From assembly GCA_020722945.1 (NCBI GenBank), contig DYJV01000019.1:1-39559 (forward strand): a stretch of 39,559 nt of DNA, written 5' to 3'. Positions 2,240 through 9,408 of the stretch are shown here, piece after piece (the first letter of the stretch is position 1; every line of letters starts with the position of its first letter). The notes beneath the pieces are model-generated. The model worked only from the letters and a program-made list of their open reading frames with translations, searched no databases and was not told the DNA's origin. The DNA is from Candidatus Methylomirabilis sp. Lineage in GTDB: Bacteria; DYJV01. A program made the translations under genes and the position numbers.

Positions 2240-3217
2240 ATGACATTAAATGAAATCTTTTCAATCATTGATGAAGATCTTAAATTAGTTGAAGATAGTA
2301 TTCACCATAATATTCAAAATAAAATAGAGCTCATATCATCTATTGGTAGTCATATATTTGGTAGTGGTGGGAAAAGATTAAGACCTGCTCTTCTTCTTCT
2401 GGCGTGTAAATTATTTGACTATAAAGGACCAGAGAGAATTTATTTAAGCTCTGCTATTGAATACATTCATACTGCGACACTTTTGCATGACGATGTAGTT
2501 GATAATTCTGTTTTAAGAAGGGGTAAACAATCTGCAAACTCTATCTGGGGGAATGAAGCAAGTGTCTTGGTTGGTGATTTTTTATTTGCTAAAGCATTTA
2601 TTCTAATCGTAGGCTCTAAAAATATAAGAGTTTTAAATATCCTCTCAAATGCTACAGGTAATCTTGCTGAAGGTGAGATCTTTGAATTAGTTAAAACAGG
2701 TGATTTACAAACCTCGATTAATGATTATTTTGAGATCATCAAAAATAAAACTGGAGTTTTATTTTCTGCTGCTTGTGAAATAGCTGCTGTTTTGGCAGAT
2801 GCACCGCACAATTTGTTAAATTCTATCAAAAGTTATGGTGATAAAATTGGAGTGGCTTTTCAACTTATAGATGATGCACTCGATTATGCCTCTACTGATG
2901 TAGAGTTGGGGAAAAAGATAGGTATAGATATCCAAGAGGGTAAAGTTACTCTACCTCTAATAGCAGCCCTTACGAATGCTAATTCTGATTCACTTTACTC
3001 TAATGTTAAAGAGATATTTTATAAAGATTCCATCGCTGAAGATGATATTAATTTTTTAAAGAATTTTGTTTTAGAAAATCGTGGAGTGGAAGATACGATT
3101 AAACAAGCACACAACTTTATTAGCCAAGCAAAGGAGGAGCTATCTATTTTCCATGATTCACCTGCAAAAACATCCCTTCTTTTACTTGCTGATTTTATCT
3201 TAAAAAGGAGATTTTAA
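2240..3217 (+). CDS. ispB: Trans-polyprenyl diphosphate synthase (long chain)
   Basis: This enzyme condenses isopentenyl diphosphate units onto an allylic primer to make the polyprenyl side chain of respiratory quinones. It has 325 residues, normal for octaprenyl/heptaprenyl synthases. Visible motifs: GGKRLRPALL (about 44-53), the first aspartate-rich motif DDVVD (84-88) within TATLLHDDVVDNSVLRRG, and the second, DDALD (211-215). The small residue five before the first motif (Ala79) fits a long-chain product. The upstream gap of 76 bases has no strong ribosome site, so the start is less secure than the family. Exact chain length and the symbol ispB are inference. Confidence 0.85.
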   Translation: MTLNEIFSIIDEDLKLVEDSIHHNIQNKIELISSIGSHIFGSGGKRLRPALLLLACKLFDYKGPERIYLSSAIEYIHTATLLHDDVVDNSVLRRGKQSANSIWGNEASVLVGDFLFAKAFILIVGSKNIRVLNILSNATGNLAEGEIFELVKTGDLQTSINDYFEIIKNKTGVLFSAACEIAAVLADAPHNLLNSIKSYGDKIGVAFQLIDDALDYASTDVELGKKIGIDIQEGKVTLPLIAALTNANSDSLYSNVKEIFYKDSIAEDDINFLKNFVLENRGVEDTIKQAHNFISQAKEELSIFHDSPAKTSLLLLADFILKRRF

Positions 3218-3218
3218 A

Positions 3219-3371
3219 ATAGTACTTTCGATCATAATCGGTGTAATTATTGGTCTTGCTTACGGTTTGTTGCTTAAATATGGGAAAAGCACTTGAGCTT
3301 GTGCGACTATTCCGGTATGGTTGTTCGGATTAATTGGTGGTATTATAGGTTTTTTAATAAAAAATAATTAA
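3219..3371 (+). CDS. Small two-helix membrane protein with in-frame TGA: candidate selenoprotein, or broken gene
   Basis: Reading 3219-3371 with TGA at 3294-3296 as an amino acid gives about 50 residues: a glycine-rich hydrophobic helix (SIIIGVIIGLAYGLLL), a polar turn KYGKST-X-ACATIP, and a second glycine-rich helix (WLFGLIGGIIGFLI), ending in TAA. Both halves make one coherent hairpin, so the frame is real on both sides of the TGA. AAGGAG (3205-3210) sits 8 bases before ATA 3219; no ATG, GTG or TTG suits, so the start is odd. A hairpin at 3309-3331 (TCCG paired with CGGA, G-rich 11-base loop) begins 12 bases after the TGA, as bacterial SECIS elements do. The shape resembles small glycine-zipper proteins carrying a GKC..GAC turn; TGA could also be a mutated GGA (Gly). 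trxA follows 12 bases on. Confidence 0.4.
3309..3331 (+). promoter_or_regulatory. Possible SECIS-like hairpin downstream of in-frame TGA
   Basis: TCCG (3311-3314) pairs with CGGA (3326-3329); beyond a T-T mismatch, A3309 pairs with T3331. The 11-base loop GTATGGTTGTT starts with G and holds a GG. The loop begins 18 bases after the TGA, inside the spacing known for bacterial SelB-binding elements. The stem is modest, so this supports but does not prove selenocysteine decoding. Confidence 0.3.
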
Positions 3372-3383
3372 AAGGAGAGAGTT

Positions 3384-3707
3384 ATGAGTGAAAAAGTAAT
3401 TCATGTTGATGATGGCAGCTTTAAAGAGATAGTTTTAGATTCTGAAATTCCTGTGTTAGTTGATTTCTGGGCATCATGGTGTGGACCTTGCCTTGCTCTT
3501 GCTCCCGTTATTGATGATATTGCAGAGGAATTTGGCAAAACTATAAAAATTTGCAAGCTTAATGTTGATGAAAACCAGAAAACTGCTATGCAGTATGGGA
3601 TCAAAGGGATACCTACGGTTCTTTTCTTTAAAGGTGGCAAAGTAGTTGACCAATCTGTTGGTTTAGTTCCAAAAGAGCATTTTAAAGAGATTATTGGAAA
3701 ATTGTAA
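3384..3707 (+). CDS. trxA: Thioredoxin
   Basis: A classical 107-residue cytoplasmic thioredoxin that reduces disulfides using electrons from thioredoxin reductase. The active site WCGPC is at residues 32-36, preceded by LVDFWASWCG and followed by the cis-proline segment GIKGIPTVLFF. No signal peptide. AAAGGAGAGAG just upstream is a strong ribosome site. It lies 12 bases after the stop of the small TGA-containing ORF, so the two are very likely one transcript; the neighbour's possible Sec/Cys turn would be a plausible thioredoxin client. Confidence 0.95.
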   Translation: MSEKVIHVDDGSFKEIVLDSEIPVLVDFWASWCGPCLALAPVIDDIAEEFGKTIKICKLNVDENQKTAMQYGIKGIPTVLFFKGGKVVDQSVGLVPKEHFKEIIGKL

Positions 3708-3909: not shown

Positions 3910-6336
3910 TTAGTTGTTCACGAGAGGTATTTTCTGGTAATCTTTCATTATCAAACGAGCAAGTTTTCTTTGAGATAGATTGTTTTGTAGTTTGTTGTTT
4001 ATTGTCTCTTTCAAAGATTCACTAATATCGAAAACTTCAAAAAAAAGTTCATCCATATGCTTGACCGGCTTTATAATAAGTGTTTCTTTAATATTGTCTG
4101 AAATTTCTTTGAGATCTTTGATATTCTCTTCTGGGATAATGATATTTTTAATTCCAAATCTCTTTGCAGCAAGAAGTTTCTCTTTTAATCCACCAATTGG
4201 AAGAATATCTCCTCTGAGGGTTATTTCCCCTGTCATTGCATAATTCCCTGATACAGGAAATGATGTCAAGGCAGAGATAATTGATGTTGCTATTGTGATA
4301 CCCGCAGATGGACCATCTTTAGGAGTTGCTCCTTCAGGGACATGGATATGAAAATCAAGTAGTTTATAGAAATCATCTACAAAGCCCAATATATCTGATC
4401 TTGTTCTTACATAGCTTAAAGCAGTTTTTGCAGATTCCTGCATTATTTCACCAAGTTTACCAGTTATATAGAGGTTCCCCTGCCCTTTCATAACAGAAAC
4501 TTCTATTGATAATATATCTCCACCTGATTGAGTCCATGCAAGACCATTTGTAACTCCAACCTTGCTTATTTTGTCGCTCGTCTGATACTTGAATTTCTTT
4601 ACTCCTAAATATTTTTCTATATTTTCTTCGTCTAAATGTATATCCTCTTCAGGTTGTATATTTTTTTTGAGAAAATCTTTTGCTATTTTTCTTAAAATTT
4701 TTTCTATCTCTCTTTTTAGATTTCGGACACCAGCTTCCCTTGTATAATTTCTTATAATTTCTAAAATAGTTTTGTCAGGTAATAAAACTTTTATGTTGTT
4801 AATCAGACCACTATTTTTTTGTAGTTCAGGGATAAGATAATTTTTTGCAATTTCCACCTTTTCATACTCTGTATACCCCTCTATTTTTATAATTTCCATT
4901 CTGTCTCTTAGTGGGTAAGGTATTGAATCGAGAGTATTTGCGGTAGATATAAATAAAACTTTCGAAAGATCGTAATCCATGCCTAAATAGTGGTCATTGA
5001 AAGTATTATTTTGTTCAGGATCTAAAACTTCAAGAAGAGCACTTGTAGGATCTCCACGATAATCAGAGCTTAACTTATCAATCTCATCAAGTAAAAAAAC
5101 AGGGTTTGATGAACCTGCCCTTTTCATCCCTTGAATTATTTTACCGGGCAATGCCCCAAGATATGTCCTTCTATGACCTCTTATCTCTGCTTCATCTTTT
5201 ACTCCACCTAAAGATATTCTGACGAATTTTCTATTTAGTGAGTTGGCGATCGATTTTCCAAGAGAAGTTTTCCCGACTCCGGGTGGTCCTACTAAACATA
5301 ATATTGGTGAATTAGTTGATTTGGAAAGAATTCTTACTGCGAGATATTCTATGATCCGATCTTTTACCTTTTCAAGACCATAATGATCTTTGTTAAGAAT
5401 CTCTTCTACTTTGGTTAAATTTTCCTCTTCCTCTGTATATTGGTTCCAAGGGATGTCAGCTATCCATTCAAGATAGTTCCTTATTATAGAAGTTTCACCT
5501 GAAAATGGGTGCATATTTTTTAATTTTTTAAGCTCAGCTTCAACTCTGTTTTTTGCTTCAGGTGGTAAAATAAGTGCTTTTAATCTCTTCTCAAATTCTA
5601 TTAAATCAGATTTAGGGTCAGATTTGAAACCAAGTTCATTATGGATTGCATTTAGCTGTTCATTTAAATAAATTTCTTTCTGATTTTTACTGATATTGTT
5701 TTTTACCTGATCTTTTATCTTTTTCTCTATTTCAAGAATATCTATTTCACTTGCCAAAGCAGAATAAACATGGCTTAATTTTTCGGTTATTTGGTTGGCT
5801 TCGAGAATGCTCTGTTTATCAGATATCTTAAAATTGACTTTTGCAGCTATTCCATAACACAATTGGTATGGATCACCTTTTGAGATGATATTGATAACGT
5901 CTTCAATGTTTATTTTCCCATTTATCTTTGTATAAATCTGAAAATTTGAAATGACATTCCTCATAAGAGCTTCAATTTCTACTTTATCTTTTCCCCAATC
6001 GTAAGTTTCATTAATTACTTCACCCTCTACACTATAAAAGTCATTATCAAAAAGGTTGGTGATATCGAAAGGTTTTAATCCTTCAATAGATACTTTGTAA
6101 GTTCCATCAATTAATTTGATAACTTGCTTTATCTTTGCGGTTACACTTTTAGTAAAAATATTTTCAATTTTAGGGTTGTTTATGTTAGGGTCTTTTTGAC
6201 AGCTCACAACGATAATAGAGCCTTTATCAACTGCGTATTCAATCCCTTTTATTGAATTTCTTCTACCAAAAAATAGATTTGCTTCTTGAAAAGGTAGCAA
6301 AATAAAATCTCTTAAAGGGAGAAAAGGGTAAATCAT
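3910..6336 (-). CDS. lon: ATP-dependent protease Lon
   Basis: Lon is a cytoplasmic homo-oligomeric AAA+ serine protease that degrades misfolded and regulatory proteins. The 808 residues match the family. The N-terminal substrate-binding LAN domain starts at [13 protein letters not shown]; the AAA+ module has Walker [10 protein letters not shown] and Walker [10 protein letters not shown]; the protease domain has PKDGPSAG with catalytic Ser677 and [11 protein letters not shown] with catalytic Lys720. The 43-residue spacing is the same as in E. coli Lon (S679/K722). TCCTCC at 6347-6352 (GGAGGA on the coding strand) supports the start. It follows clpX after 77 bases, so the two proteolytic genes may share a transcript. 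Confidence 0.97.
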
Positions 6337-6413
6337 AAATTAAATATCCTCCGTAAAATATACTTAAAAAAGAAATTGATGATAGAGTATTTAGGTTAGT
6401 AATAAAGTCAGTG

Positions 6414-7679
6414 TTATGCGATCTTATGCTCTTTGTAAATAAAAATTGGTTTTAGGTTTTTTGATACAACTTCTTCGTTTATTATCACTTCTCTGATATT
6501 TTTTTTGGAAGGGATTTCAAACATAATATCAGTCATAATATTTTCAACGATACCTTTAAGCCCTCTTGCTCCAGTTTTCCTTTTTATTGCTTCTTTGGCT
6601 ATCGCTCTTAATGAATCTTCAGAAAATATAAGCTTGACATTGTCAAATTCAAGAAGTTTTTGGTATTGTTTGATTATTGCATTTTTGGGTTCGGTAAGTA
6701 TCCTCAATAAAGCTTCCTCGTCAAGATCTTCAAGTGTAGAGATCACAGGAACACGACCGATAAACTCAGGTATTAGACCGTATTGCATCATATCCTCAGG
6801 CTCAAGGGACTTAAGTATCCCCTCTTTCATTTTATCCTTTTTAGTTTTGGGAGTGCCATGAAATCCTATTGTTTTTTTACCGATTCTTCGCTCAATAATA
6901 TCTTCGATGCCGACAAATGCCCCCCCAAGTATAAAAAGGATATTTGTAGTGTTTATCTTTATAAAGTCTTGGTTGGGATGCTTTCTTCCACCTTTGGGTG
7001 GGATATTTGAGACAGTCCCCTCTATGATTTTCAGTAAGGCTTGTTGAACACCCTCTCCAGAAACATCTCTTGTAATGGAAGGGCTGTAAGATTTTCTTGC
7101 TATTTTATCAATTTCGTCAATGTATATAATCCCCTTCTCTGTTCTTTCAATATCGTAATTAGCTGCCTGGAATAGACTCACTAATACATTTTCTACATCT
7201 TCTCCTACATATCCAGCTTCTGTAAGTGTAGTCGCATCTGCAATAGTGAATGGGACATCAAGAATTTTTGCAAGGGTGCTTGCGAGTAATGTTTTGCCAC
7301 ACCCTGTGGGCCCAATAAGGAGAATATTACTTTTATCAATCTGAATATCATTCTCTTTATCTTTTTTCTCAGAAGAATTGTAGTTTATTCTTTTGTAATG
7401 GTTGTAAACAGCTACTGATAATTTCCTTTTGGTCTCATCTTGTCCAATTACATATTCATCAAGTGCTTTTTTTATCTCTTCAGGTTTTTGTAGAATATTT
7501 TTAAGATTTTCAACCTTCTCTTTTTCAAATTCAGTAAAGATTATTTCGTTACATAGATTAACACATTTATCGCAAATATATACTCCGTTGGGACCTTCAA
7601 TAAGTTTTTTAACAGATCTTTCGTCTCTTTCACAAAAAGAGCATTTTATCCATCTGCGTTTACTATTTTCATAAGCCAT
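6414..7679 (-). CDS. clpX: ATP-dependent Clp protease ATP-binding subunit ClpX
   Basis: ClpX is the hexameric AAA+ unfoldase that feeds substrates to ClpP. The 421-residue protein starts with the zinc-binding domain (Cys13, Cys16, Cys36, Cys39: CSFC and CDKC), followed by Walker A GPTGCGKT, Walker [10 protein letters not shown], the pore-loop segment AGYVGEDV and the IGF loop region (KKTIGFHG), which contacts ClpP. clpP is not in the window, although it commonly sits immediately upstream of clpX; here ilvB takes that place, 31 bases away. A GGAG site precedes the ATG. Confidence 0.97.
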
Positions 7680-7710
7680 TTACTATCTCCATAAAAAATT
7701 TTTATTTAAT

Positions 7711-9408
7711 TTAAACTAATAACATTTTGTTTAATGGTGCACCAGCAGGAACCATTGGATAAACATTTTCCTCTCTATCTATTCTGAAATCAACAATTAC
7801 AGGTTTGGGAGTCTCTAATGCCTGCCTCAAAATAGACTCAACATCCTCCTTTTTATCACATCTGAACCCAACTGCACCGTAACTCTCTGCTAATTTTACA
7901 AAATCTGGTGTAACCTCCATGATCGTTTCGGAGTAATTTTTGTTGAAAAATAGCTCTTGCCATTGCCTTACCATTCCAAGATAATTGTTATTAAGTATTA
8001 TAATTTTTATTGGTAATCCAAATTGAATTACGGTTGCTAATTCTTGGATATTCATCTGAATACTTCCATCTCCAGCAATATCAATTACAGTTTTGTCAGG
8101 AAATGCAATTTGTGCACCTATTGCAGCGGGAAAACCGTAACCCATTGTCCCTAATCCACCTGATGTCAAAAATGTCCTTGGATTTAGGAAGGTGTAATAT
8201 TGAGCTGACCACATCTGATTTTGACCAACTTCTGTTGCTATAATTGCTTTGCCTTTAGTTAATTCAAAAATTTTTTCTATAATGTATTGAGGTTTTACTT
8301 TACTGCTTTCTGTGTCGTATTTTAATTTGTGTTTATCTCTCCATTCGTCAATCTTATGATGCCAATCTTTTATATTATTGTGAAAACTCTCTATCTTATC
8401 GGAAAAATCTGTATTAAGTAAAGCATTAAATTTCTGGAGGGCAATAAGGGAGTCCCCCACAATAGGGATATCTACAACAACATTTTTACTTATTGATGTG
8501 GGGTCTATATCTATATGGATTATTTTTGCATTTCCGGCAAATTCATCTGTTTTACCTGTAACCCTATCATCAAATCTTGCTCCGATTGCAATGAGAATAT
8601 CACAATCAGTAACAGCCATATTTGCTTTGTATGTTCCATGCATTCCAAGCATTCCAAGAAAAAGCTTATCATTTGAGGGGAAAGCACCAAGCCCCATTAA
8701 GGTAGATGTTATAGGGATATTGGTTGTTTGGATAAACTTTCTCAACTCTTCAGAACTATTTGATGAGATTACCCCACCTCCAATATATACTAAAGGTTTT
8801 TTTGAGTTAAGAATTTCAGTTAATGCTTTTCTTATTTGACCAATGTGACAATCGTAATTAGGTCTGTAACTTGGTAGATCTATATCTTTGGGGTATTCAT
8901 AGTTTTTGGTTTTTGATGCAACTATATCTTTTGGTAGATCTACGAGAACAGGGCCTTTTCTTCCAGTATTTGCAATGTAAAAAGCTTCTTTTATTATTCT
9001 TGGAAGATCTTTTACATCTTTTACTAAATAGCTGTGTTTTGTGCATGGTCTTGTAATTCCTACAATATCAGCCTCCTGAAAAGCATCATTGCCGATTAAG
9101 GTTGTAGGAACTTGCCCTGTAAATAAAACAAGAGGGATAGAATCCATATATGCAGTTGCTAATCCAGTAACAGTATTTGTAGCTCCAGGACCTGAAGTTA
9201 CTAAAGCAACCCCAACATCCCCTGTAGCCCTTGCATATCCGTCCGCAGCGTGGACAGCTGCCTGTTCATGCCGGACCAAAATATGTTTAATTTTGTGATT
9301 AGGTAATTCATCGTAAATATTTATGACTGCTCCACCAGGATACCCAAAAAGATACCGCACATTTTCAAGGGTTAAGCACTCTAAAAGGATTTGAGAGCCC
9401 GATTTCAT
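7711..9408 (-). CDS. ilvB: Acetolactate synthase large (catalytic) subunit
   Basis: Thiamine-diphosphate enzyme that joins two pyruvates to acetolactate (or pyruvate and 2-ketobutyrate), the first common step of branched-chain amino acid synthesis. The 565 residues span the three domains: the N-terminal PYR domain with [15 protein letters not shown] and the catalytic glutamate Glu48 ([19 protein letters not shown]), the central domain, and the PP domain with the thiamine-binding GDGSIQMN followed by [18 protein letters not shown] precedes the start. The regulatory subunit gene ilvN, usually next to ilvB, is absent, and the neighbours are protease genes. A catabolic acetolactate synthase is less likely given length and motifs. 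Confidence 0.93.

Follow-up and report, generated by a model that had tools for sequence, protein, structure and literature searches.

A candidate selenocysteine-containing DUF6132-like membrane hairpin encoded beside trxA in Candidatus Methylomirabilis sp.

Known selenoprotein families and the DUF6132 hairpins

A 2026 catalogue lists 119 prokaryotic selenoprotein families and subfamilies, and gives the UxC motif, where U is selenocysteine (Sec), for the PF13192 thioredoxin-like family and for SO_0444 (PMC13188914). Like the locus described here, the catalogued proteins place Sec in a redox-type motif and have Cys homologues (PMC13188914). A Sec-containing DUF6132 protein is absent from the 119 families, NCBIfam holds no model for the TGA forms described below, and a full-text search of the openly accessible literature found nothing on DUF6132 or PF19628, its lone match being to DUF6.

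Our subject is a small open reading frame (ORF) at positions 3219 to 3371 of the forward strand of the window, by which we mean the whole 39,559-nucleotide stretch analyzed (Candidatus Methylomirabilis sp., contig DYJV01000019.1). The Cys form of DUF6132 (for example L113 and L121) shares with this ORF a two-helix hairpin of about 55 residues with G-rich helices, a reactive residue that occupies the second-Cys column and precedes a Pro by six residues, and a frequent position beside trxA. The ORF differs from the Cys form in that TGA replaces the second Cys, the first Cys is missing, the start is ATA, an extra Cys lies two residues past the TGA and the score falls below the Pfam cut-off. Also close are DUF6132 genes that carry an in-frame TGA (for example L118, L139, L145 and L190), which share with the ORF the TGA column, a small residue next to it and a genome that decodes Sec, as well as, in many of them, a SECIS-like hairpin at the same place and, in family f83, a thioredoxin neighbor. 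Unlike the ORF, all of these but L190 keep the first Cys.

The reading frame and its decoding context

A single frame is open from 3219 to 3371 across one stop, the TGA at 3294 to 3296, and reads IVLSIIIGVIIGLAYGLLLKYGKST-TGA-ACATIPVWLFGLIGGIIGFLIKNN up to its terminator TAA at 3369 to 3371. Translation gives a 50-residue product with the proposed Sec as residue 26. In an AlphaFold model (mean pLDDT 79.6), residues 2 to 21 and 33 to 49 are helical and residue 26 sits in the loop that joins them. From the translation, this model and profile scores set against shuffles and decoys, we annotate the ORF as a putative Sec-containing, DUF6132-like two-helix membrane protein. Relative to the codon usage of the window, the ORF frame scores +8.6 bits, as compared with -16.6 and -13.3 bits for the other same-strand frames, a value equaled by 0.3% of shuffles; most of this signal comes from the part before the TGA, and the part after it contributes a small +1.2 bits.

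The ORF lies in a run of genes on the forward strand. Upstream, a polyprenyl synthase gene (2240 to 3217), named from its DDxxD motif and the original prediction rather than from a family search, ends with its TAA 1 nt ahead of the proposed ATA start. Downstream, the thioredoxin gene trxA (3384 to 3707; PF00085, 107.5 bits), whose product is the proposed redox partner, begins 12 bases 3′ of the ORF end. A Shine-Dalgarno-like AAAAGGAG is located at about 3203 to 3210, 8 nt ahead of the ATA. The open frame, the TGA, the terminator and the neighboring genes are exactly as originally predicted, and the ribosome site in front and the 12-base distance to trxA hold as well. Farther along the window, at 3910 to 9408 on the minus strand, genes that by eye are lon-like, clpX-like and acetolactate-synthase-like converge on trxA.

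The start codon is a weak point of the gene, as the original prediction had recognized. Reading the frame from the upstream stop to the first helix, we found no ATG, GTG or TTG, which leaves ATA 3219 as the presumed start, a codon suitably spaced from AAAAGGAG and either non-canonical or altered; the TGA relatives examined begin instead with ATG or GTG. AUA starts are documented in Staphylococcus aureus infC, ccpN and citZ, and in reporter tests such a start gave roughly 10 to 30% of the AUG level (PMC13009471).

The genome that contains the window encodes SelA (596 bits), SelB (351 bits, above cut-off), a tRNA-Sec found by Rfam (72.8 bits) and also by ARAGORN, and SelD (334 bits). SelD has one in-frame TGA, within RAAGUAGK, which we take to be its Sec position. 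The contigs that carry this apparatus resemble the window in GC content (31 to 35%) and tetranucleotide composition (r 0.965 to 0.986), and this speaks against errors of binning. Because SelA, SelB, tRNA-Sec and a TGA-bearing SelD are all present, UGA is decoded as Sec in this genome, and the apparatus to which the original prediction had tied the selenoprotein reading is in place. The only same-order genome, G001 (L020 and L156), has tRNA-Sec and a TGA-bearing SelD, with no match for SelA and only a C-terminal piece of SelB, and may be incomplete or losing the Sec trait.

We scanned the sequence 3′ of the TGA with the bacterial SECIS model, which asks for an apical loop of 3 to 9 nt with a G in the first two positions and a stem of at least 4 pairs, located 16 to 37 nt from the UGA and folding at -7.5 kcal/mol or lower (PMC13188914). 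A SECIS-like upper stem-loop at 3311 to 3329 on the forward strand, with the apical loop GGUU at 3319 to 3322, has all of these properties: 3311 to 3315 and 3317 to 3318 pair with 3323 to 3329 (7 pairs), the hairpin lies 22 nt past the TGA and the 48-nt fold reaches -9.0 kcal/mol. The original prediction had described a hairpin starting 12 bases after the TGA; the one that fits the bacterial model is instead that at 3311 to 3329, placed 22 nt from the TGA. The RNAfold optimum for the first 45 nt is another hairpin, at -8.8 kcal/mol. When 300 other TGAs of the window were scanned, 19 preceded a hairpin that satisfied the same constraints (6% by chance), and the strict filter was passed by 13 of the 20 TGA genes tested, a comparison in which the null, being drawn from an AT-rich window, is too kind to GC-richer genomes. 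The window hairpin falls at about the same codons (Pro-x-Trp) that form a hairpin in the relatives of family f210. In those relatives and in L117 the loop is GGUC, which we presume to resemble the hairpin loop of E. coli fdhF.

Kinship with DUF6132 and the competing readings

The sole sensible match to the ORF was a weak one to PF19628 (DUF6132), which with Cys placed at the TGA scored 11.9 bits, below the gathering cut-off of 23.2; the ORF matched no model in NCBIfam or Rfam. Using a profile built without the window and with the null2 correction off, the ORF score was reached by none of 10,000 shuffles and topped 13,014 unrelated frames outside the training set, and the ORF can be aligned over both helices to DUF6132 members better than chance. 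Kinship falls short of certain because with bias correction on the ORF scores are unremarkable, near those of the best shuffles. Together, the sequence comparisons support a relationship between the ORF and DUF6132, if not beyond doubt.

Across DUF6132, searching first for PF19628 and afterwards with alignments to which the window had been added, we found 20 other genomes whose DUF6132 gene has just one in-frame TGA. They belong to nine GTDB families: f83 accounts for nine genomes, f210 for four, and f150, f199, f105, f197, f130, f37 and f42 for one apiece. Weak matches at L004 to L010 and at most of L124 to L135 were rejected as chance on reading, L129 being a real member, and the TGAs inside L110 and L113 are ordinary terminators. 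In 19 of the 19 representatives aligned, the TGA occupies the second conserved Cys column. Cys and TGA have been exchanged within f83, where L143 and L147 have Cys and all remaining members TGA; seven Cys/TGA changes are required on the tree, at least three of them on well supported branches. Between pairs of relatives, dN after the TGA is 0.05 to 0.26, well below dS (0.5 to 2.6 where computable), so purifying selection acts on the protein sequence encoded past the TGA. SelB scored above cut-off in 19 of 20 TGA genomes, leaving out that of the window, and in 10 of the 20 with a Cys form (p 0.0017), and by family in 9 of 9 versus 8 of 17 (p 0.008).

The ORF fits this pattern in most respects. 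Aligned with 19 TGA and 19 Cys forms, its TGA at 3294 to 3296 falls at the second conserved Cys column, the proposed Sec codon, and lies 6 residues from the conserved Pro, as does this column in 18 of the TGA and 16 of the Cys forms. Immediately after the TGA comes Ala, a residue found there in 8 of the 19 TGA forms and 1 of the 19 Cys forms; Pro follows the column in 17 of the Cys forms versus 1 of the TGA forms (p 2e-7). The six-residue spacing, this Ala and the GGUU-loop hairpin 22 nt past the TGA are three features that specifically favor a Sec form. The two conserved loop Cys of DUF6132 are not found, the first column being Tyr and the second the TGA. Absence of the first Cys has a precedent in the TGA form L190 (RYAGGSGUAITCNP, to be compared with LKYGKSTUACATIP in the window). 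The tree places the ORF among mostly TGA forms (90/90) on a long branch, with the reservation that proteins of 50 residues give a tree of low resolution. The ORF is at most 38% identical to any TGA form. G001 has no homologue of the ORF, none of 80 relatives recovered by a prenyl synthase search has it, and a profile search of those 80 loci returned just DUF6132 members already known.

We think it probable that the ORF is a divergent Sec-containing relative of DUF6132, with UGA 3294 to 3296 read as Sec and a product that forms a two-helix membrane hairpin. Of the two branches of the original prediction, selenoprotein or fresh pseudogene, the first is favored by a genome equipped for Sec and by the many TGA/Cys pairs that the family shows in the matching column, frequently with trxA as a neighbor. 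The second survives as the foremost competitor, an unlikely one: a freshly decayed DUF6132 gene whose start and second-Cys (or Gly) codon were each hit once and which makes no product. The ATA and the TGA occur together, a single change would turn TGT, TGC or GGA into TGA, the first Cys is missing and G001 is without the gene. A decayed gene would nevertheless have to keep its frame whole on both sides of the TGA with no further lesion, and to have acquired that TGA at the one column that carries it in nine other families, followed by an Ala typical of TGA rather than Cys forms and a SECIS-like hairpin, in a genome that decodes Sec. A fresh pseudogene retains an appreciable share of the probability because of the ATA start and because no close relative is among the genomes compared.

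Considerably less plausible is an unrelated membrane ORF, small and rich in glycine, or a lookalike spacer, that ends at an ordinary TGA stop and resembles DUF6132 in composition. The low bias-corrected HMM scores would suit such an ORF, Gly-zipper hairpins are common, and the stretch before the TGA could by itself be a one-helix peptide; however, same-composition shuffles and real frames fall short of the ORF score, the length, spacing and terminator suit DUF6132, and trxA adjoins the ORF as it adjoins DUF6132 genes in six other families. That the TGA is a sequencing error for the Gly of an STGAC motif in an ordinary Cys protein is very improbable and was set aside: STUAC does match the STGAC of L110, L113 and L121 letter for letter, and Gly scored slightly above Cys with our first, smaller profiles, but the Gly register puts Cys 4 rather than 6 residues from Pro, breaking a nearly fixed spacing, leaves the first Cys still absent, and with the full 38-member profile scores 25.3 bits against 27.1 for Cys.

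Proposed function and significance

Returning to the Sec reading, SelB and tRNA-Sec would read UGA 3294 to 3296 as Sec, aided by the hairpin just 3′ of it, and the product would be a two-helix membrane hairpin with Sec in the connecting loop, where the Cys two residues past Sec may stand in for the first Cys usual in the family. Barring a one-base error in the assembly, initiation would be at AUA 3219, weakly, and possibly coupled to the end of the preceding gene. We infer that electrons or sulfane sulfur may be exchanged between this selenol and the product of the adjacent trxA.

In 15 of 38 relatives, which belong to families f83, f146, f184, f106, f171 and f131, a thioredoxin gene lies on the same strand at a distance of no more than 900 bases. 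In f83, OsmC and ArsR-type genes are nearby (checked with Pfam in L118 only), and some other DUF6132 genes are near a gene for a metallo-beta-lactamase-fold protein or a pyridine-nucleotide disulfide reductase. The common theme of these neighbors is thiol and sulfur chemistry. A selenol or thiol in the loop would, we propose, be served by thioredoxin and function in the membrane as a redox or sulfur carrier.

Several individual loci have unusual neighbors. In L143, L145 and L150 (f83), two or three successive thioredoxin-like genes lie upstream of DUF6132, one of which carries the motif ADWCFQC or ANWCFQC. In L123 and L129, the gene after DUF6132 encodes an atypical thioredoxin-like protein, in which DWCKWCK or DWCHWCK replaces WCGPC. 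On a Riemerella plasmid (L192, 3684 to 4159), a Cys-form DUF6132 gene comes directly after a heavy-metal-associated-domain gene.

On balance we lean toward DUF6132 being an unrecognized and widespread selenoprotein family, a minimal membrane hairpin with a selenol that works with thioredoxin and in which Sec and Cys have been exchanged several times; the ORF in the window would be an extreme form, with U-x-C replacing C-x(3-7)-U and an AUA start keeping its level low. Gene callers are expected to stop at the TGA, and the family would therefore be missed or truncated in genomes. Its recognition would add a membrane-embedded class to the selenoprotein catalogue. Genome context ties the family to thioredoxin and also, though this has been checked less, to genes of the OsmC and ArsR types, and the function of DUF6132 thereby becomes testable as that of a membrane thiol/selenol carrier.
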